Shown one piece after another: positions 2,808-14,608 of a stretch of 41,893 bases of DNA (positions are counted from its first letter, which is position 1; each line of letters starts with the position of its first letter). Position numbers and translations under genes: made by a program. Below the pieces are notes generated by a model. It did no database searches, was not told the origin of the DNA, and saw only the letters and a program-made list of their open reading frames with translations. The stretch is from Candidatus Mucispirillum faecigallinarum. Its GTDB lineage: Bacteria > Chrysiogenota > Deferribacteres > Deferribacterales > Mucispirillaceae. The stretch lies in contig DXAQ01000086.1 of assembly GCA_019116905.1 (NCBI GenBank), positions 1 to 41,893 on the forward strand, given 5' to 3'.

Positions 2808-4946
2808 CTATTTAATAAACAGCATTTCTCTGTATTTTGGCAGAGGCCATAAAGTATCTGATACAATTTTTTCTAATCTATCAACTACTTCTCTTAATTC
2901 TGCCATAGCGCTTAAGATTTCTTCATGGAGGCCTGTTACAGCTTTTTCCATTTTTTCTGTTTTCTCTGTTAAATCTTCAAGACCTTTGCCTAAAAGTTCA
3001 ACATTTCTTTTTAAAGCATCAACGCCAACAGTAATACCAGCATCTGTTGCAGATTTTACTGCTGAAAGTTCAGTTTTAAATTCTTCAATAACTGCAGGAA
3101 GAATATTGTTACGAACAATATTTAAAGCAATTTCACCTTCAATGCGTATTTTACGGTGATATTCTTCTAAAAATACTTCAAAACGTGATTCAAGTTCTTT
3201 TTTAGAATAAACACCATATTTGCTGAATAAATTAATATTTTTATCATTTACTAAGCATCTTAACGCTTCCATTGTAGATGATGCATTAGGAAGTCCTCTG
3301 CGTGCAGCTTCCTCTTTCCATTCCTGAGTATAGCCATCACCGTTAAAAATAACTCTTTTATGGTCTTTAATAATACCTTTTAATACTTTTTGAAGTTCGT
3401 TGTTAAAAGCTTCTTCATTTCCTACATGTTTTTCAAGCTGTTCTGCAATAAAATCAAAAGAGTCTGCAACAATAGTATTTAATACTGTCATAGGACCAGA
3501 GCATGACTGGCTTGAGCCTGGCGCTCTAAATTCAAATTTATTACCAGTAAAAGCAAATGGGCTTGTTCTGTTTCTATCAGTTGCATCTTTTGGCAGGTTA
3601 GGCAGAGTATCTACACCAATCTGCATAACGCCTGCTTTATGTTTAGAGCTTGTTTCGCCTTTTTCAATATTTTCTATTACTTCATTAAGCTGGTCGCCAA
3701 GGTAAACAGAAATAATTGCTGGAGGTGCTTCATTTGCACCAAGTCTGTGGTCATTACCAGCATGGGCAACTGATGCTCTAAGCATATCTGCATGAGTATC
3801 AACAGCTCTTATAATACCAGATAATACTGTTAAAAATACAGCATTTTGCTGTGGATTATTACCAGGGTTTAATAGGTTTGTAGAGCCATAATTAATTGAC
3901 CAGTTATTATGTTTACCGCTGCCATTTACTCCTGCAAATGGTTTTTCATGTAAAAGACATACAAAACCATGTCTGTCTGCTACAAGACGAAGTGTATCCA
4001 TAATAAGCATATTATGGTCAACAGCTAAATTTAAATCTTCAAACATTGGAGCAAGTTCAAATTGACCAGGCGCAACTTCATTGTGGCGAGTTTTTGCAGG
4101 CACTCCTAATCTCCATAATTCATCTTCCACTTCGTTCATAAAGTTAAGAACGCGCTGCTGGATAGAACCAAAATAATGGTCTTCTAACTGCTGATGTTTT
4201 GGAGGAGTTGCCCCAAAAAGTGTTCTGCCAGTTTGTAAAAGGTCTGGTCTGTGCAGGTAAAACTTTTTATCTATTAAAAAATATTCCTGTTCTGCCCCAA
4301 GAGTAACTGTAACTTTTTCTTCTTCTAAACCAAAGCATTTCATAAGCCTTTGAGTAGAAGATGATAGGCACTGAATAGAGCGTAAAAGCGGAGTTTTTTT
4401 ATCAAGCGCTTCACCAGTATATGAGCAGAAAGCAGTAGGAATACATAAAGTTGCACCATTAGCATGGCGTTTTATAAATGCAGGGCTTGTTGGGTCCCAT
4501 GCAGTATAACCTCTTGCTTCGAAAGTTCTGCGTAAACCACCTGATGGAAATGATGACGCATCAGGTTCACCAACTATTAAATTTTTAGCAGAAAATGCAA
4601 ATATTGCATTATCCCCTTCTATTTCTAAAAATGAGTCATGTTTTTCAGCAGTTGAGCCTGTTAATGGCTGAAACCAGTGTGTAAAGTGAGTAGCTCCCCT
4701 TTCTATTGCCCACTGTTTCATACCGTGAGCAACATCTGCAGCAATTTCTGGGTCAAGCTGTGCTCTGTTATTAATTGTATTTAATAACTTCTCTGCGGAT
4801 TTTTTTGGTAAATACTCCCTGATAGCTTTAGCGTTAAAAACATCTTCACCATAATGTTCTAATGTAGCTTTTTCTACTTTTGCATTTCCTAATGCTCTAT
4901 TTTCAGCAATAGAATTAATTGTCAAGTATCGTTTTGAAAAACTCAT
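2808..4946 (-). CDS. glnN: Glutamine synthetase type III
   Basis: 712 aa; GSIII-type motifs 'FQPLTGSTAEKHDSFLE', 'GAEQEYFLID', 'VNGSGKHNNWS', 'RNRTSPFAFTGNKFEFRAPGSSQS'; AGGAGG ribosome-binding site upstream. Confidence 0.97.
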   Translation of the reverse strand: MSFSKRYLTINSIAENRALGNAKVEKATLEHYGEDVFNAKAIREYLPKKSAEKLLNTINNRAQLDPEIAADVAHGMKQWAIERGATHFTHWFQPLTGSTAEKHDSFLEIEGDNAIFAFSAKNLIVGEPDASSFPSGGLRRTFEARGYTAWDPTSPAFIKRHANGATLCIPTAFCSYTGEALDKKTPLLRSIQCLSSSTQRLMKCFGLEEEKVTVTLGAEQEYFLIDKKFYLHRPDLLQTGRTLFGATPPKHQQLEDHYFGSIQQRVLNFMNEVEDELWRLGVPAKTRHNEVAPGQFELAPMFEDLNLAVDHNMLIMDTLRLVADRHGFVCLLHEKPFAGVNGSGKHNNWSINYGSTNLLNPGNNPQQNAVFLTVLSGIIRAVDTHADMLRASVAHAGNDHRLGANEAPPAIISVYLGDQLNEVIENIEKGETSSKHKAGVMQIGVDTLPNLPKDATDRNRTSPFAFTGNKFEFRAPGSSQSCSGPMTVLNTIVADSFDFIAEQLEKHVGNEEAFNNELQKVLKGIIKDHKRVIFNGDGYTQEWKEEAARRGLPNASSTMEALRCLVNDKNINLFSKYGVYSKKELESRFEVFLEEYHRKIRIEGEIALNIVRNNILPAVIEEFKTELSAVKSATDAGITVGVDALKRNVELLGKGLEDLTEKTEKMEKAVTGLHEEILSAMAELREVVDRLEKIVSDTLWPLPKYREMLFIK

Positions 4947-4981
4947 ACTGCCTCCTTAAATTTTTTTTCAAATTACCTTAA

Positions 4982-4997
4982 TGCAATATAAATGCCA
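4982..4997 (-). promoter_or_regulatory. Putative sigma-54 (-24/-12) promoter for glnN
   Basis: Minus-strand TGGCATTTATATTGCA matches TGGCAYRNNNNTTGCW at all defined positions but one, with correct GG-to-GC spacing; predicted start about 25 nt upstream of the glnN ATG. Confidence 0.75.
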
Positions 4998-5053
4998 AAA
5001 TTATTTTTAGTATAATAAAACAATAAATTTCCTTTATTTTCAATATAAAAATA

Positions 5054-5072
5054 ATGTTTTATCCAAAAACAT
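5054..5072. promoter_or_regulatory. Inverted repeat ATGTTTT-N5-AAAACAT in glnN/gltB intergenic region
   Basis: 7-bp perfect arms around ATCCA, midway between the divergent promoters. Confidence 0.4.
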
Positions 5073-5085
5073 ACTTGTGAAAACA

Positions 5086-5105
5086 TTATTACAATATTGT
5101 AATAA
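5086..5105. promoter_or_regulatory. Perfect 20-bp palindrome TTATTACAATATTGTAATAA, candidate operator/enhancer
   Basis: Self-complementary 20-mer between divergent glnN and gltB; its core TTACAA-N2-TTGTAA recurs at 12984-12997. Confidence 0.55.
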
Positions 5106-5174
5106 AAAAATAAATGCTTTACAATTTTTACTAAAAAATGTTATAAAAAAGCTTGTTTTTGCATAAAAAAATTA

Positions 5175-5190
5175 TGGCATAGTTTTTGAT
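5175..5190 (+). promoter_or_regulatory. Possible sigma-54-like promoter for gltB
   Basis: TGGCATAGTTTTTGAT has correct -24/-12 spacing but GA instead of GC at -12; about 28 nt from predicted start to ATG. Confidence 0.4.
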
Positions 5191-5228
5191 TATAATAAAT
5201 GCGAAGGAATAAATATAGGAGTGATTAA

Positions 5229-8200
5229 ATGTATCCTGAAAACATTGGGCTTTATGACAGCCAGTATGAAAAAGATGCCTGTGGTGTCGGGCTAATTGCA
5301 GATTTAAAAAATATACCAACACACCAAACTGTAGAAAATGGTATAACAATTTTAAAAAATTTAATGCACAGAGGTGCAACAGGTGGCGACCCTGAAACTG
5401 GTGATGGTGCAGGGATTTTAGTTTCTATACCTGATGAATTTTTCAGAAAAGTAGTTAAAGAAAAACTGCCTGAATATGGAAAATACGGTGTTGCTGTAAT
5501 TTTTGGCGGCACAGGTATAGAAGATGAAATTGAAAAAATAATCACAGAAAAATGTGGCGATATTATATGCTGGAGAGATGTGCCTGTTGATGTTAATGCA
5601 GTTGGTAAAGCTGCAAGAACTACATGCCCTAAAATCAGGCAGATATTTATTAAAAGTAAATATGATAATCAGGCAGTTTTTGAAAGAAAACTATTTATTG
5701 CAAGAAGACTTATTGAAATAAAATTAAAAGATGTATATATTCCTAGTATGTCATCAAAAAGTGTAGTTTATAAAGGTCTTTTTATGGCTACTCAGGTTGA
5801 AAACTTTTATCAGGATTTAAAAGATACGTCTTTTAAATCACCTATTGCATTAGTTCACCAAAGATACAGTACAAATACTTTTCCTACATGGGAGCTTGCT
5901 CACCCATTTAGATATATTGCTCACAATGGTGAAATCAATACATTAAAAGGTAACTTAAACAATTTAGCAGGCAGAGAGCCGCAGTTTTCTTCATCACTTT
6001 TAGGAGATGATTTAAAAGAAATACTTCCATTAATAAAAGAAGGACAAAGCGACTCTGCATCTCTTGACAATATGTTTGAACTGCTTGTAGCAAGCGGCAG
6101 AGATTTATGCCATGCAATGCTTATGCTTATTCCACAGGCATGGGGTCCTAAATACCACATGGGTAAAGATGTAAGAGCATTTTTTGAATACCATTCTGCA
6201 TTAATGGAACCATGGGACGGACCTGCTGCTGTTGCTTTTTCTGATGGTGTTAATGCTGGTGCTATACTTGACAGAAACGGACTTCGTCCTGCAAGATATA
6301 CTGTTACAACAGATAATGTGCTTGTACTTGCATCAGAAACTGGTGTTTTAGATATACCTTATGATAAAGTTCTTAAAAAAGGCAGATTACGTCCTGGTGA
6401 AATAATCTACTGTGATTTAGAAAACCATAGAATAGTCAGCGATGCTGCTGTTAAAAAAACAGCTGCAAGAAACCTGCCTTATAGAAGATGGATTGATGAA
6501 AACAGAATATATGTTAATGGTCTTTTTGAATCATTATCACCTGCAGAACCATCTAGAAATATTATTAAAAAACAAAAACTTTTTGGTTATACTAAAGAAG
6601 ATTTTGATTTTATTATTAAACCTATGGCAGAAAAAGGTGCAGAACCTGTTGGCTCTATGGGTAACGACGCTGCACTTGCTGTATTAAGTGAAAAACCACA
6701 GCTTTTATTTAACTATTTTAAACAGCTTTTTGCTCAGGTTACTAACCCGCCAATAGATTCTATCAGGGAAGATTTAGTTATGAGCCTTATTACTTTTATT
6801 GGCAATAAAGGCAATATATTAGAAGATGACGCAAGCCATGCAAGAGTAATTGAACTTCCAAGACCAATTATTACAAATGATGAACTTAAAAGACTTAGAG
6901 ATATTGGTGAAGAAGGATTTAAATCAGCTGTTATCAATATTTCATTTAGAAATGATTTAGAGCAATCTTTAAAAAATATTGCAGAAATAGCAGTAGAAAA
7001 AGTTAAGGAAGGTTACCCTGTTCTTATATTAAGTGATAAAAATATTGAGGAAGGATATACTCCTATTCCATCACTGCTTGCTGTTACTGCAGTTAATAAA
7101 GCATTATCAAAAGCAGGAATACGTCCAGAATCTGCTGTTATTTTAGAAACTGGTGAAGCAAGAGAAATTATGCATTTTGCTCTGCTTTTAGGCTACGGCG
7201 CTACTGCAATATGCCCATATATGGCTCTTGAAAGTATTTCTGCACTTGTAGAAAGCCATGAAATAAAAGCAGATAAAGTAAAAGCTACTGAAAACTATGT
7301 AAAAGCAGTAGATAAAGGACTTCTTAAAGTTATGAGTAAAATGGGTATTTCTACATTAAGAAGTTACAGAAGCGGCCAGCTTTTTGAAGCGGTTGGTTTA
7401 AACCAGGATATTATAAAAGAATATTTTACAGGCACAGCAAGCCGTATTAATGGTATAGGCTTAAAAGAAATTGAACATGAAGCTTTAATGAGAAGAAAAG
7501 CAGCTGATGAACATAATGATGATATGCTTGAATCAGGTGGCCAGTATCATTTTAGAAAAGATGGTGAAAACCACTTATGGACTCCTGAAAGTATGACATT
7601 ATTCAGACAGGCAGTTCAAGGTAAAAATAAAGAAAAATATAAAGAATATGCAAAACTTATTAATGAGCAGTCAAAACATTTATGCACATTAAGAGGTCTT
7701 TTTGAATTTGCAACAGCAGTGCCTGTACCACTTGAAGAAGTTGAAAGTGCATCATCTATTGTTAAAAGATTTGTAACAGGTGCTATGTCCCTTGGCTCTA
7801 TCAGCCCAGAAGCACATGAAACTATTGCTATTGCCATGAATAAATTAGGCGGTATGAGTAACTGCGGTGAAGGTGGTGAAGACCCAGAAAGATACAAACC
7901 TAACGAAAAAGGTGAAGTTAGAAGCAGTGCAATTAAACAGATTGCAAGCGGCAGGTTTGGTGTGACTATTGAATACTTAACTAATGCAAAAGAATTACAG
8001 ATTAAAATGGCACAAGGTGCAAAACCAGGTGAAGGCGGCCAGCTTCCAGGTCATAAAGTAAACGCATTTATTGCAAAATTAAGACACTCTATGCCTAATG
8101 TTAGCTTAATATCTCCTCCTCCTCACCATGATATATACTCTATTGAGGATTTAGCACAGCTTATTTATGACCTGCGTAACTCTAACCCAGAAGCAAGAAT

Positions 8201-9641
8201 TTCTGTAAAACTTGTTTCAGAAGTTGGTGTAGGTACAATTGCAGCAGGTGTTGCAAAAGCTCATTCAGATGTTATTTTAATAAGCGGTCATGACGGCGGA
8301 ACAGGAGCATCACCTTTAACAAGTATTAAACATGCTGGTCTTCCTTGGGAATTAGGTCTTGCAGAAGCGCAGCAGACACTTGTTTTAAATAAACTTCGCG
8401 GCAGAGTAAGGCTGCAGACAGACGGCCAGTTAAAAACAGGACGTGATGTTATAATTGCTGCTCTTTTAGGTGCAGAAGAATTTGGGTTTGCTACAACAGT
8501 TCTTGCAAGTTTAGGCTGCGTTATGATGAGACAGTGCCACTCAAATACTTGCCCTGTTGGTATTGCTACTCAGGATGCAGATTTAAGGAAAAAATTTACT
8601 GGAAAACCAGAATATGTTGAAAACTTCCTGATGTTTGTAGCAGAAGAAGTAAGAGAATATTTAGCAGCTTTAGGACTTAGAACACTTGATGAAGCAATAG
8701 GCAGAAGTGATTTATTACAGGTTAATAAAGCAATTGAATTTTATAAAGCTAAAAATCTTGATTTCTCTAAAATACTGCAGACTGTAAGCGGTAAAGAAAT
8801 TAAACATAACAGCAGTTACAGTAATAAACTTGAAAACTATGATAGAGAATACTTACTTGCTCCATTTAAAGAAAGTATAGAAACTGGAAAAGCTAAAACT
8901 ATTGATTTAGAAGTTAAAAATATTAACAGAACAGTAGGAACAGAGCTTTCTCACAATGTAGCTAAAAAATACGGCTTAAAAGGTTTAGAAGATGATACTA
9001 TTAATGTAAACTTTAAAGGCTGTGCAGGTCAAAGTTTTGGTGCATTCTTAGCTCACGGTATTACTTTTAATTTAGAAGGCGAAGCAAATGATTTTGTAGG
9101 TAAAGGTATATCTGGTGGTAAAATAATAGTTAAACCTGCTAAAAATGCTTCATTTAAAGCATCTGAAAACGTTGTTGCTGGTAACGTTATTGGTTACGGC
9201 GGCACAAGTGGTAAAATATTCTTAAATGGTCAGGCTGGTGAAAGGTTTGCCATTAGAAACAGTGGATTTATCTCTGTTGTAGAAGGTATTGGCGACCATG
9301 GATGCGAATATATGACAGGCGGCAGAGTTGTTATACTTGGTAATACAGGTGTAAACTTTGCAGCAGGTATGACTGGCGGTATTGCTTACGTTCTTGATAT
9401 GAGTAATGATTTTGACTTACGCTGCAACACAAGCTCTGTTGACTTAGAAAATATTGAGCCAGGCAGCGAAGATGAAAAAGAAATTTTATCATTACTTAAT
9501 GAACATATAAAATATACTGACAGCCAAAAAGCCAAAGAAGTAGTAGCAGACTGGGAAAATTACAGAGATATGTTTGTAAAAGTATTCCCTGTAGATTACA
9601 AAAAAGCATTACAAGCTATGAAAGAAAATGGCAGTAACTAA
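5229..9641 (+). CDS. gltB: Glutamate synthase large subunit
   Basis: 1470 aa; N-terminal 'CGVGLIADL' class II glutaminase, 'HQRYSTNTFPTWELAHPFR', FMN-binding/synthase region 'GQLPGHKVNAFIAKLRHSMPNVSLISPPPHHDIYSIEDLAQLI', C-terminal GXGXG domain. Confidence 0.97.
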   Translation: MYPENIGLYDSQYEKDACGVGLIADLKNIPTHQTVENGITILKNLMHRGATGGDPETGDGAGILVSIPDEFFRKVVKEKLPEYGKYGVAVIFGGTGIEDEIEKIITEKCGDIICWRDVPVDVNAVGKAARTTCPKIRQIFIKSKYDNQAVFERKLFIARRLIEIKLKDVYIPSMSSKSVVYKGLFMATQVENFYQDLKDTSFKSPIALVHQRYSTNTFPTWELAHPFRYIAHNGEINTLKGNLNNLAGREPQFSSSLLGDDLKEILPLIKEGQSDSASLDNMFELLVASGRDLCHAMLMLIPQAWGPKYHMGKDVRAFFEYHSALMEPWDGPAAVAFSDGVNAGAILDRNGLRPARYTVTTDNVLVLASETGVLDIPYDKVLKKGRLRPGEIIYCDLENHRIVSDAAVKKTAARNLPYRRWIDENRIYVNGLFESLSPAEPSRNIIKKQKLFGYTKEDFDFIIKPMAEKGAEPVGSMGNDAALAVLSEKPQLLFNYFKQLFAQVTNPPIDSIREDLVMSLITFIGNKGNILEDDASHARVIELPRPIITNDELKRLRDIGEEGFKSAVINISFRNDLEQSLKNIAEIAVEKVKEGYPVLILSDKNIEEGYTPIPSLLAVTAVNKALSKAGIRPESAVILETGEAREIMHFALLLGYGATAICPYMALESISALVESHEIKADKVKATENYVKAVDKGLLKVMSKMGISTLRSYRSGQLFEAVGLNQDIIKEYFTGTASRINGIGLKEIEHEALMRRKAADEHNDDMLESGGQYHFRKDGENHLWTPESMTLFRQAVQGKNKEKYKEYAKLINEQSKHLCTLRGLFEFATAVPVPLEEVESASSIVKRFVTGAMSLGSISPEAHETIAIAMNKLGGMSNCGEGGEDPERYKPNEKGEVRSSAIKQIASGRFGVTIEYLTNAKELQIKMAQGAKPGEGGQLPGHKVNAFIAKLRHSMPNVSLISPPPHHDIYSIEDLAQLIYDLRNSNPEARISVKLVSEVGVGTIAAGVAKAHSDVILISGHDGGTGASPLTSIKHAGLPWELGLAEAQQTLVLNKLRGRVRLQTDGQLKTGRDVIIAALLGAEEFGFATTVLASLGCVMMRQCHSNTCPVGIATQDADLRKKFTGKPEYVENFLMFVAEEVREYLAALGLRTLDEAIGRSDLLQVNKAIEFYKAKNLDFSKILQTVSGKEIKHNSSYSNKLENYDREYLLAPFKESIETGKAKTIDLEVKNINRTVGTELSHNVAKKYGLKGLEDDTINVNFKGCAGQSFGAFLAHGITFNLEGEANDFVGKGISGGKIIVKPAKNASFKASENVVAGNVIGYGGTSGKIFLNGQAGERFAIRNSGFISVVEGIGDHGCEYMTGGRVVILGNTGVNFAAGMTGGIAYVLDMSNDFDLRCNTSSVDLENIEPGSEDEKEILSLLNEHIKYTDSQKAKEVVADWENYRDMFVKVFPVDYKKALQAMKENGSN

Positions 9642-9660: not shown

Positions 9661-11052
9661 ATGAAAACTATACCTAGAATACAAAATATATATAGACCAG
9701 AAGCTACTCGTATAGAGGATTATAAAGAAGTTGAAAGAAAATTTAATACAGAAGAATTAACTATTCAGGCTTCAAGATGTATGGACTGTGGTATACCATT
9801 TTGTCATGGATTAGGCTGCCCTCTTGGTAATGTTATACCAGAAATGAATGATGCAGTAAAACATGAAAACTGGAAACTTGCATGGGAAATATTAAGTGAA
9901 ACAAGTAATATGCCTGAATTTACAAGCAGAGTATGCCCTGCCCTTTGCGAAAATGCATGCACAAAAAATATTGAAAATGTGCCTGTAATGATTAGACAGC
10001 TTGAAAAATCTGTTGTAGAAAACGCTTTTGAATTTGGTTATGTAAAACAAATCACACCTGAAACAAAAACTGGTAAAAGCGTTGCAGTTGTAGGTGCAGG
10101 CCCTGCTGGGCTTTATATGGCTTTTGAACTTTTCAAAAAAGGCCACAACGTTACAGTTTATGAAAAAAGAAAATATGCAGGCGGACTTTTAAGATACGGT
10201 ATACCTGATTTTAAACTGGAAAAAAATGTAATAGAAAGACGCATAGATATATTAAAAGCATCTGGTATTGAATTTCAGTTTAATACAGAAATAGGAAAAG
10301 ATATTTCTGCAGAATATTTAAAGAAAAAATATGATGCTACCGTACTTGCAATAGGAACACCAGTTCCAAGAGATTTACAGGTGAAAGGCAGAGAGCTTAA
10401 AAATATACATTTTGCATTAGAATTTTTATCTGGTCAAAATATGTTTATAGGCAAAGAAGTTAACAAACTTCCTATTGATGTAAAAGGAAAAGATGTAGTT
10501 ATTATAGGCGGCGGCGATACAGGAAGCGACTGTTTAGGTACATCTATCAGGCAGAAAGCTGCAAATGTTACTCAAATAGAAATTATGCCTGAGCCACCAA
10601 AAGAACGTTCTGCCTCTACTCCTTGGCCAGACTGGCCTTATGAGCTGAAAACTTCTTCAAGCCATAAGGAAGGCGGCACAAGGCTTTGGGCAAAAGTTGT
10701 CAAAGAGTGCCATGGCTCAAACGGCGTTGTTACAAGTATTGATATTGTAGATGCTGCATGGGAATTTTCTCCAGAAGGCAGACCAGTATCTTTTAAAGAA
10801 GTGGAAGGCACTCTTACAAATATTAAAGCTGACTATATCTTTATAGCTATGGGCTTTTTAGGTGTAGATGGTAACTCTTTTATTAAAGATTTACATTTAG
10901 AAGCAGATAAAAGAGGCAGAGTGGAAGGTGCAGCAGCTCAAGGTATCTTTACATGCGGCGATATGAGAACTGGACAATCACTTGTTGTGCGTGCAATGGC
11001 TAACGCTAAACAAACAGCAAAAGATGTAGATAACTATTTAAAAGGACTATAA
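9661..11052 (+). CDS. gltD: Glutamate synthase small subunit (NADPH)
   Basis: 463 aa; Cys clusters '[22 protein letters not shown]', '[10 protein letters not shown]', dinucleotide motifs '[14 protein letters not shown]' and '[13 protein letters not shown]'; follows gltB. Confidence 0.96.
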
Positions 11053-11053
11053 A

Positions 11054-12286
11054 ATGGCAAAAATTAACTCAAATTACTTACTGCTTCCTAACAGCTATCT
11101 TTTTGCAGAAATTGCAAGAAAAGTTAAAGCTTATCAGGAAGCAAACCCAAATGCAGATATTATCAGAATGGGTATTGGTGATGTTACACGCCCTCTTACT
11201 CCAAGCATTGTAAAAGCTATGGAAAAAGCTGCAGAAGAAATGGAACATGCAGAAACTTTTAGAGGCTATGGGCCAGAACAGGGGTATGATTTTCTTATTA
11301 ATGCTGTTATTAATGGGGAATATAAATCAAGGAATATTAATATTGAGCCTGATGAAATCTTTATAAGCGATGGCTCAAAATGTGATGTTGCTAACATTCA
11401 GGAAATATTTGATATAAACTCTACTGTTGCAATAGCAGACCCTGTTTATCCAGTATACCTTGACAGTAACGTTATGGCAGGCAGAAGCGGCAAATTAAAT
11501 GATAAAGGATATTTTGAAAAAATTATTTATATGCCTTCTACAAAAGAAAATAATTTTAAACCAGAATTTCCTGCGCAGCATGCTGATTTAATATATATCT
11601 GCTCCCCTAATAACCCAACAGGGACAGCTTTAACAAAAGAAGACTTAAAAGCATGGGTTGATTATGCATTAAAAAATAACTCTATTATTTTATATGACAG
11701 TGCATACAGCGCATATATTCAGGAAGAAAATGTATGCGGCTCAATATATGAAATACCTGATGCTAAAAAAGTTGCAATAGAATTTAAATCATTCTCTAAA
11801 ACAGCAGGTTTTACAGGCATAAGGTGTGCTTTTACAGTTGTGCCAAAAGAATTAGAAGCTTTTGATGATATGGGCAATAAAGTTGCTCTTAATAAACTTT
11901 GGAACAGAAGGCAGACTACTAAATTTAACGGCGTATCTTATGTTACACAAAGAGCAGCAGAGGCTGTTTATTCAGAACAAGGTATGAAAGAAACAAAAGA
12001 AGTCATTAAATACTATATGGATAATGCTAAAATAATATTAGAAGGCTTAAAAAGTGCCGGCTTTGAAGTATACGGCGGCGTAAATGCACCATATATATGG
12101 TGGAAAATACCATCAGGAATAAAATCATTTGATTTTCTTGATATATTACTTGAAAAATATCAAATAGTCGGCACTCCTGGTTCAGGTTTTGGACCATGCG
12201 GCGAAGGCTATTTCAGATTAACAGCTTTCGGCAACCAAGAGAAAACTAAAGAAGCAATGCAGCGAATATCAAAAGGCAGCTTCTAA
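11054..12286 (+). CDS. dapL: LL-diaminopimelate aminotransferase
   Basis: 410 aa class I aminotransferase; '[19 protein letters not shown]', '[13 protein letters not shown]', '[17 protein letters not shown]', '[11 protein letters not shown]' typical of DapL. Confidence 0.94.
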
Positions 12287-12340: not shown

Positions 12341-12841
12341 TTAAAAATTTAATATATATTTAATTAGTTTTGTATCAATACTAATACTGCGAGCTAACGG
12401 ATGTTTCGGAGAACCATTCTTATTTAACCCTAAACAATATAATTTTAAACCTAATGATTTTAATATATTTAAAACTTCAATATCACGATTTAAAAAATGA
12501 CCATGATTTCCCCATGCAGCAACAATAATTTGTGATTGTTTTACAATTTTATTTATCCAAAAATTATTTTCTGGTCCAACAGGGTCATTATTAACATATA
12601 ATTCTGCTGGTTTAGATGAACGTAATGCAAATAAATTAACTACATATATGCTGCCACATTCTTCTCTCATAGCTAGTTTGACACATTTACGGATAGTTGG
12701 GTCATCTTTTAATGCATCTGCTTTACTTGGATTTAGCATTATATATGTCATAACTTTATCATTATCAAGCCACTTACGTTTTAAAAAATATCTATATATT
12801 TCATTTTCAGAAATTTTTACATCAGAACTAATATAATTCAT
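12341..12841 (-). CDS. DUF1643 family protein
   Basis: 166 aa; 'YIMLNPSKADALKDDPTIRKC', 'VVNLFALRSSKPAEL', 'IVAAWGNHG', 'LGLNKNGSPKHPLA' typical of DUF1643. Confidence 0.85.
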   Translation of the reverse strand: MNYISSDVKISENEIYRYFLKRKWLDNDKVMTYIMLNPSKADALKDDPTIRKCVKLAMREECGSIYVVNLFALRSSKPAELYVNNDPVGPENNFWINKIVKQSQIIVAAWGNHGHFLNRDIEVLNILKSLGLKLYCLGLNKNGSPKHPLARSISIDTKLIKYILNF

Positions 12842-12982: not shown

Positions 12983-12998
12983 TTTACAATTTTGTAAA
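12983..12998. promoter_or_regulatory. Palindromic candidate operator TTTACAA-TT-TTGTAAA upstream of the sigma-54 activator
   Basis: 7-bp arms, 2-bp spacer; overlaps possible sigma-70 -35 (TTTACA) with TATAAC 17 bp downstream; shares core with palindrome 5086-5105. Confidence 0.5.
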
Positions 12999-13039
12999 AG
13001 TCTATTATAACCTATTATTCAAATTAATAAGGGTTACAA

Positions 13040-14608
13040 ATGGCAGGAAGAAAAGCAAATATTCAAGACAAGCAGGAACATTCATTAAGTCCAGAAATTA
13101 CTGTATTACAAGAGATAAGTTATGCGATAGTTCATAAGAAAAATGTAAGTGAACTTTTACACCAAATATTAGAAATATTAAGCTCACGCCTGAATATGAA
13201 ACGCGGCACTTTCACTATTGTTAAGCATAATAAATTATTTATTGAAGCAACCCATGATTTACATGATGCAGAAAAAAAACATATATCTTATGATATTGGA
13301 GAAGGTATTACAGGCCATGTGGCAGAATGTGGCAGACCTCACTTAATAGAAGATATTGTCCATGACCCAAGGTTTTTAAACAGGCTTGGTGCAAGAGATA
13401 AAAACGAAAAAATAGCATTTATATGTGTACCTATCATTAATATGGAAAGAGTTATTGGCACATTAAGTGTTGATAGAATAATGGATGAAAATGCAGACCT
13501 GCAAAAAGATTTAAAATTTTTAGAGATTGTAGGAAATATTGTAGGTGAAGCATTAATGGCAGTAGTTGCAGAACATGAAGAAAAAGAACAGCTTATACAT
13601 GAAAATAAACAGCTTAGAGATATGCTTGATGACAGCAACCCGCCTGCTTTAATTGGCAACTGTAAAAGTATGAGAGAAATATATGCATTAATCAAGCAGG
13701 TTGCTGCAAGTGATGCAACAGTATTACTTCGTGGAGCATCAGGCACAGGTAAAGAAATGGTTGCTCGTGCCATTGTATCACTCAGCAATAGAAAAGATAA
13801 ACCATTTATTACATTAAACTGTGCTGCAATACCAGAAAACCTTGTAGAAAGTGAACTTTTTGGCCATGAAAAAGGAGCATTTACTGGTGCAGTTGCAAGG
13901 CGTATTGGTCATGTTGAAAAAGCAAATACTGGCACATTATTTCTTGATGAAGTTGGTGATTTATCACTGGCATCCCAGGTTAAACTTTTAAGATTTATTC
14001 AAGAAAGAACATTTACAAGGCTTGGCAGCAGCCAGACACTAAAATCAGATGTAAGGTTGATTGCTGCTACAAGTAGAAATCTTGAAGAAATGATAGCAAA
14101 TGGACAGTTCAGGGAAGACTTATATTACAGATTGAATATTTTCCCTATTACTATGCCAGATTTAAATGCAAGAAGAAGTGATATTATTCTTTTAGCAGAA
14201 CATTTTATAGAAAAACATAACTTAAAATATCAAAAAAATATTAAAAGGCTTTCTACTCCTGCAATTAATATGCTTATGAGCTATCACTGGCCTGGTAATG
14301 TGCGTGAACTTGAAAACTGTATAGAAAGAGCAGTAATCACTGCTACAGATGACTGTATACACGGCTATAATCTGCCTGCATCATTACAAACTGGTAAAAC
14401 ATCTAACTCATCATTACTGCCTGATGGTGCTGCATCATTTAATACTCTTGTAGATTCTTATGAAAGAGAATTAATTGTAGAATCATTAAAAAGAAACCAT
14501 GGCAATATGTCTGCTGCTGCAAGAGATTTAGATTTATCTCCTCGTGTAATACATTATAAAATCAGAAGATTAGGTATTACTCCAGAATGGTATCAAGATA
14601 AAGTATAA
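13040..14608 (+). CDS. NifA/NtrC-type sigma-54-dependent activator (GAF, AAA+, Fis-type HTH)
   Basis: 522 aa; GAF 'GEGITGHVAECGRPHLIEDI', Walker A 'GASGTGKEMVA', 'ELFGHEKGAFTGA', 'GTLFLDEVGDL', 'HWPGNVRELENCIERAVI', C-terminal HTH 'GNMSAAARDLDLSPRVIHYKIRRLGI'. Confidence 0.94.
   Translation: MAGRKANIQDKQEHSLSPEITVLQEISYAIVHKKNVSELLHQILEILSSRLNMKRGTFTIVKHNKLFIEATHDLHDAEKKHISYDIGEGITGHVAECGRPHLIEDIVHDPRFLNRLGARDKNEKIAFICVPIINMERVIGTLSVDRIMDENADLQKDLKFLEIVGNIVGEALMAVVAEHEEKEQLIHENKQLRDMLDDSNPPALIGNCKSMREIYALIKQVAASDATVLLRGASGTGKEMVARAIVSLSNRKDKPFITLNCAAIPENLVESELFGHEKGAFTGAVARRIGHVEKANTGTLFLDEVGDLSLASQVKLLRFIQERTFTRLGSSQTLKSDVRLIAATSRNLEEMIANGQFREDLYYRLNIFPITMPDLNARRSDIILLAEHFIEKHNLKYQKNIKRLSTPAINMLMSYHWPGNVRELENCIERAVITATDDCIHGYNLPASLQTGKTSNSSLLPDGAASFNTLVDSYERELIVESLKRNHGNMSAAARDLDLSPRVIHYKIRRLGITPEWYQDKV

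Follow-up and report, generated by a model that had tools for sequence, protein, structure and literature searches.

The palindrome TTACAA-N2-TTGTAA, which in Candidatus Mucispirillum faecigallinarum stands both between the divergent genes glnN and gltB and in the promoter of a nearby gene for a one-component sigma-54 activator, is very probably the DNA site of this neighbouring activator, a putative assignment derived from genome comparisons. The sites, their conservation, their geometry with respect to sigma-54 boxes and their link to the activator gene were observed directly in the genomes. The window to which all positions refer is the whole stretch of DNA analysed, 41,893 nucleotides in length.

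Sites in the window and in the genome

Two exact copies of TTACAANNTTGTAA are found in the window, at 5089-5102 (glnN/gltB) and at 12984-12997 in the activator promoter, where the sequence reads TTTACAATTTTGTAAA (12983-12998). Both lie exactly where the original prediction had placed them, and its reading of the second promoter was likewise right: TTTACA at 12983-12988, 17 bp, TATAAC at 13006-13011. The features of the window discussed here are the following:

2808-4946, minus strand: glnN, type III glutamine synthetase (GSIII_N), predicted target
4982-4997, minus strand: predicted sigma-54 -24/-12 element of glnN, TGGCATTTATATTGCA; centre of the upstream site at about -124
5086-5105, core 5089-5102: palindrome TTATTACAATATTGTAATAA, putative enhancer (UAS) in the divergent glnN/gltB intergenic region
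5119-5132: second, degenerate copy of the palindrome, TTACAATTTTTACT, at a distance of 30 bp or about three turns of the helix
5175-5190, plus strand: predicted sigma-54 -24/-12 element of gltB, TGGCATAGTTTTTGAT; centre of the upstream site at about -105
5229-9641, plus strand: gltB, glutamate synthase large subunit (PRK11750, above cut-off), predicted target
9661-11052, plus strand: gltD-type glutamate synthase small subunit (TIGR01317, above cut-off), gltB operon
11054-12286, plus strand: LL-diaminopimelate aminotransferase (TIGR03542, above cut-off), gltB operon
12983-13011, plus strand: sigma-70-type promoter TTTACA-N17-TATAAC of the activator gene, with the -35 inside the putative operator; -10 region conserved in 8/8 congeners
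12984-12997: putative operator TTACAATTTTGTAA in the activator promoter, exact and at the same position in 8/8 congeneric genomes, the present one counted
13040-14608, plus strand: activator, 522 aa, composed of GAF, AAA+ sigma-54 interaction and Fis-type HTH domains
13145-13555, plus strand: GAF sensor domain of the activator, residues 36-172
14462-14569, plus strand: Fis-type HTH (HTH_8, PF02954) of the activator, residues 475-510, recognition helix SPRVIHYKIRRLG

According to Markov models of order 1-3 trained on the window, 0.012-0.022 exact matches are expected by chance per 41.9-kb window, the probability of at least two is 7e-5 to 2.5e-4, and 0.7-1.2 matches are expected in the 2.31 Mb of the genome. 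The whole genome contains five, and the same pattern read backwards, used as a control, does not occur at all; a motif equally common in random DNA, the outcome named beforehand as speaking against the idea, is thus not what we found. Four of the five sites are intergenic: those at glnN/gltB and the activator gene, one upstream of amtB (locus L003) and one upstream of a porin-like gene (locus L002; gene at L002:58-1314, minus strand), which was classified as an outer-membrane porin by sequence only and has no NCBIfam match. The amtB and porin sites, the sigma-54 boxes and the degenerate copy at 5119-5132 were absent from the original prediction.

Tolerance of mismatches abolishes the enrichment: with up to two mismatches, six matches were found in the window vs 9.7 expected; with one mismatch, the backwards control was commoner in the own genome (40 vs 27), and relaxing the pattern to TTACA-N4-TGTAA gave 12 vs 8 there. 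Only the exact motif is therefore informative, our argument is built on exact sites and their conservation, and no confident targets can be drawn from relaxed searches.

The fifth exact site is carried by the atypical contig C7, where it is flanked by genes for a BceS-like kinase and a BceA-like transporter. Since it matches the BceR consensus and the contig has a GC content of 25%, the site was set aside, its most plausible reading being a BceR box on DNA of foreign or contaminating origin. Contig C7 (L001, L006, L007) carries a BceRSAB-like cluster together with two further TTACA-N4-TGTAA sites, and probably is a Firmicutes contaminant in the assembly. The fifth site is also a caution that a palindrome of this kind does not belong to one family of regulators only.

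The activator and its predicted promoters

The activator lacks a receiver domain at its N-terminus and has a GAF domain instead, followed by an AAA+ domain (PF00158, E 1.9e-71) with the GAFTGA loop present. Its best NCBIfam model is that of NifA (TIGR01817), with a score of 476.2 bits, below the cut-off of 528.85. The closest solved chains to the GAF segment are those of Nlh1 (4g3k/4g3w, E ~7e-17), ahead of NifA (9qq6), the latter being the best full-length solved relative (E 9e-97). For most of the chain, the structure is predicted with confidence (mean pLDDT 83); a fold search with the full model brought AAA+ activator structures to the top and hence says little about the sensor domain. No PII protein (GlnB/GlnK) was detected in any of the eight same-family genomes searched, the control being positive in 13 of 14 genomes, and the GAF domain may therefore read the nitrogen status directly. 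Most genomes of the own genus do contain amtB, glnN and gltBD.

The site precedes the predicted sigma-54 start by approximately 98-125 bp at glnN, gltB, amtB and the porin gene. The predicted -24/-12 elements downstream of the amtB and porin sites are TGGCACACTATTTGTT (site centre at about -98) and TGGCATAAAGATTGCA (about -120), respectively, and a glnN box is retained in every one of the eight further genomes of the family where it could be read. The sigma factor itself is encoded in the genome (rpoN; PF04552, contig C57, E 1.6e-58). NtrC-type DNA sites follow the pattern GCACY-N5-RGTGC; neither this pattern nor the NifA UAS, TGT-N10-ACA, occurs in the four target regions. Upstream of the activator gene, no sigma-54 box was found in the genomes of the genus that were read, and the palindrome is separated from the ATG by 42 bp; its overlap with the -35 hexamer is partly forced, since the palindrome itself supplies TTTACA.

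Two observations concern the neighbourhood of these promoters. At the porin-like gene (L002:1480-1520), a TTTACA-N17-TATAAC element covers the site as at the activator gene and stands beside the sigma-54 promoter; it is present in the own genome and not in G009, the arrangement suggesting dual control of this gene. Between the aminotransferase and activator genes lies a DUF1643 gene (window 12341-12841), likewise in G004, which was not found at that place in the other congeners read.

We hold with good confidence that the protein encoded at 13040-14608 binds TTACAA-N2-TTGTAA (core TACA-N4-TGTA), using it as a sigma-54 enhancer and as an operator in its own promoter; binding to the sites, the sign of autoregulation and the nature of the signal are what we infer here. 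When nitrogen is short, the GAF domain would release the AAA+ domain, and the activator, positioned upstream of the sigma-54 promoters, would switch on glnN, the gltBD-aminotransferase operon, amtB and the porin gene. On its own gene, where the -35 of a sigma-70-type promoter falls within the site, the bound activator is proposed to limit its own synthesis. The signal might be 2-oxoglutarate or another nitrogen-status metabolite, and direct sensing is proposed because no PII was found.

Conservation within the genus and family

The elements TTTACAATTTTGTAAAA and ATTATAACC of the activator promoter are unchanged in eight same-genus genomes, amid divergence farther upstream. All six readable amtB promoters carry an exact site, with differing flanks. 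At glnN/gltB, the site is exact in eight of the nine genomes of the genus, G007 having one mismatch, as well as in G011, which belongs to another genus of the family; among the other readable genomes of the family it is exact in 8/9. An element resembling the degenerate second copy recurs at +30/+31 in same-family genomes, and the porin site was seen in two genomes only. Altogether, 24 of the 27 exact sites in ten same-genus assemblies stand at the four promoters. Two extra exact sites were set aside, one in G003 (C4:86526) lying inside a coding ORF and one in G007 (C1:1745765) having neighbours without an evident nitrogen role.

Exact sites were also compared with the presence of the activator in all 40 genomes, hand-tallied from two tables: the 11 genomes with a detected activator orthologue (one of them a fragment) contain 27 exact sites vs 8 backwards controls, the 29 genomes without a detected one 22 vs 21. 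Of the latter 22 sites, three belong to nitrogen promoters of G002 and G024; both assemblies are incomplete, and their congeners have the activator gene. An exact site in G018 was rejected, as its EBP is only 38-40% identical and has a different recognition helix. In the sister genus, no activator orthologue was found (best match E ~1e-70), and the GSIII promoters are without the site, GSIII there being a different one (51-52% identical); RpoN is present in the genome of this genus that was tested.

In G024, which belongs to another family of the same order, exact sites precede nifH and amt, and near-matches precede glnN; the operator may thus have taken on a role in nitrogen fixation. It speaks against the assignment that this 88%-complete assembly yielded no close activator orthologue, although its congener G035 has one. 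The nifH locus of G024 (C110, L292:374-3725) comprises a sigma-54 promoter and the exact site, followed by nifH, two small ORFs in the nifI position and nifD. In G035, a natural GAF-less activator homologue (C70, L293:4415-5362; 74% identical, 315 aa with the start as taken from the ORF) is encoded in a gltD-aminotransferase-activator gene run.

The same site in other phyla

In Victivallis vadensis, the region that separates the divergent genes glnN and gltB holds the palindrome twice in exact form, at a distance of 31 bp, with one sigma-54 box on each of the two sides (TGGCACGGCATTTGCT and TGGCACGCTTTTTGCT); such AT-rich palindromes are rare by chance in this genome with its 62% GC. The 31-bp tandem, with 0-1 mismatches, recurs between divergent glnN and gltB in a Victivallis MAG (G040) and a Victivallales MAG (G042), again flanked by sigma-54 boxes on both sides. 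Sites are also found at gdhA in V. vadensis, there with a sigma-54 box upstream of the gene, and in the Victivallis MAG. The Victivallis glnN and gltB (L250, L253) are 67-71% identical to window 2808-9641, while the GSIII of the sister genus reaches only 52%. For the glnN/gltB module, sequence comparison suggests either transfer across phyla or differential loss.

In Lentisphaerota/Verrucomicrobiota, Spirochaetota and Desulfobacterota-type MAGs, homologues of the activator are encoded in the neighbourhood of gltBD-aminotransferase, glnN, gdhA, amt-PII or gltB. A gltBD-aminotransferase run ends with the activator gene in G011 and the Victivallis MAG, for which reason the own-promoter operator in the present genus may be a later arrangement. 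Four homologue loci (Spirochaetaceae, Treponema and a deltaproteobacterial MAG) together contain the core TACA-N4-TGTA six times, mostly beside the activator, amt or gltB, vs twice in 793 kb of background loci, a ratio that is indicative only, as the background is on average GC-richer. The exact core was not found in the homologue loci of Akkermansia, Kiritimatiellae, Bacteroidetes and most of those of Desulfo- type. The spirochaete sites mainly read CTACA-N4-TGTAG, and the recognition helices of the spirochaete proteins differ as well; this joint change of operator base and recognition helix is the best sequence evidence that the site is recognised by the activator rather than by some other protein.

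The proposal that one activator serves both sites of the window, as enhancer of glnN/gltB and autorepressor of its own gene, thus gains comparative support: site, sigma-54 boxes and activator co-occur across genera and phyla, and a diverged spirochaete recognition helix goes along with a changed outer base of the motif.

Alternative explanations

The main rival is an NtrX-like response regulator (contig C157), the adjacent GAF activator then acting elsewhere. An NtrY/NtrX-type kinase-regulator pair is indeed encoded in the own genome, and NtrX of S. meliloti binds CAAN2-5TTG (PMC9223101), which is contained within TTACAANNTTGTAA. However, the site adjoins the gene of the GAF activator and this synteny extends across phyla, the TTA/TAA flanking CAA/TTG matches the core in its degree of conservation (partly a matter of selection, the sites having been picked with at most one mismatch), and in the spirochaete loci it is with the helix of the GAF activator that the outer base changes; given synteny and this co-change, we regard an NtrX-like binder as unlikely. 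Less probable still is an OmpR-family BceR-like or other unlinked regulator: BceR-type regulators do recognise TNACA-N4-TGTAA (PMC9020739), and the BceRSAB-like cluster of contig C7 has three TTACA-N4-TGTAA sites, but the GC content of that contig lies below the 28-36% of other loci of the genome, BceR serves peptide-resistance transporters, and at the other sites there are sigma-54 boxes of nitrogen genes, spaced as for an enhancer.

That the palindromes are nothing but chance AT-rich sequence, a caveat already attached to the original prediction, could appeal to the GC content of about 23% in the intergenic DNA here and to a motif that, with two mismatches, is no commoner than in shuffles. 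We consider it exceedingly improbable, as it is contradicted by conservation across genera and phyla: the exact sites far exceed expectation in the window, persist as islands in otherwise diverged promoters, and form a tandem at the same genes in a genome of 62% GC. A variant compatible with the main part of our explanation has the activator bind with a positive or neutral effect on its own gene. It has some claim to attention, for where the activator ends a gltBD-aminotransferase run (G011, Victivallis MAG), its autoregulation from the gltB promoter would be positive; the covered -35 hexamer, the short distance to the ATG and the lack of a detectable sigma-54 box at the activator gene of the present genus make it rather improbable here. 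The reading of the palindrome as the activator's enhancer at its targets and repressing operator at its own gene remains the one we prefer.

Significance and comparison with known systems

In our literature search, transcriptional control of type III glutamine synthetase was found only for cyanobacteria; the GSIII of Mucispirillum has been published (PMC5285517). The present analysis offers a concrete candidate regulator-operator pair for this enzyme, an operator common to unrelated gut bacteria, and a predicted regulon comprising glnN, gltBD, amtB, the porin and the regulator itself, joined by gdhA and nifH in relatives. In a lineage with sigma-54 nitrogen control and no detectable PII, it becomes directly testable what a NifA-type GAF domain senses by itself. 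More tentatively, and with somewhat more doubt than conviction, we suggest that PII-independent one-component control may stand in place of NtrBC/PII in this family, the GAF activator reading a nitrogen metabolite directly, and that regulator, 31-bp-phased tandem operator and divergent glnN/gltB may form a module conserved between, and possibly transferred across, gut-bacterial phyla, with the spirochaete operator base following the changed recognition helix.

The comparison with NtrC at glnALG, drawn from the outset, holds in part. NtrC has enhancer sites, more than one per promoter, before the sigma-54 promoter of a glutamine synthetase gene and represses sigma-70 promoters of its own operon (PMC3870243), and the present activator would share both traits. 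The present protein, however, is a GAF regulator of NifA/Nlh1 type and not NtrC; it has no receiver domain, no PII was detected in the genomes of the family that were searched, the DNA sequence is another one and the enzyme is GSIII, not GSI. The spacing of roughly three turns is also that of the E. coli NtrC sites at glnALG.

The closest known systems are NifA, Nlh1 of Aquifex aeolicus and DVU1949 of Desulfovibrio vulgaris. NifA resembles the activator in domain architecture and as its best full-length solved relative, and the same site stands before nifH in G024; unlike NifA, the activator scores below the NifA cut-off, its putative UAS is TACA-N4-TGTA vs TGT-N10-ACA, and its predicted targets in the own genome are assimilation genes. 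Nlh1 (NifA-like homologue 1) likewise is a GAF-regulated one-component sigma-54 activator and provides the nearest solved GAF chain; a role in the assimilation of nitrogen, and not in its fixation, has been speculated for it, and its GAF dimer keeps the AAA+ domains inactive until ligand binds (PMC9866876). It differs in phylum, and the targets GSIII, amtB and porin as well as the cross-phylum UAS are described here for the present activator. DVU1949 is a one-component sigma-54 activator with a predicted regulon of nine nitrogen-metabolism operons plus its own operon (Kazakov et al. 2015, PMC4641369); it shares with our activator the comparative-genomics nitrogen regulon and the predicted autoregulation, and differs in being co-transcribed with DVU1952, in some genomes with iorAB, and not with gltBD/glnN. 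A Desulfovibrionaceae MAG carries a homologue of the present activator (L065, 42-43% identical) beside glnN-gltB, and DVU1949 may belong to the same group.
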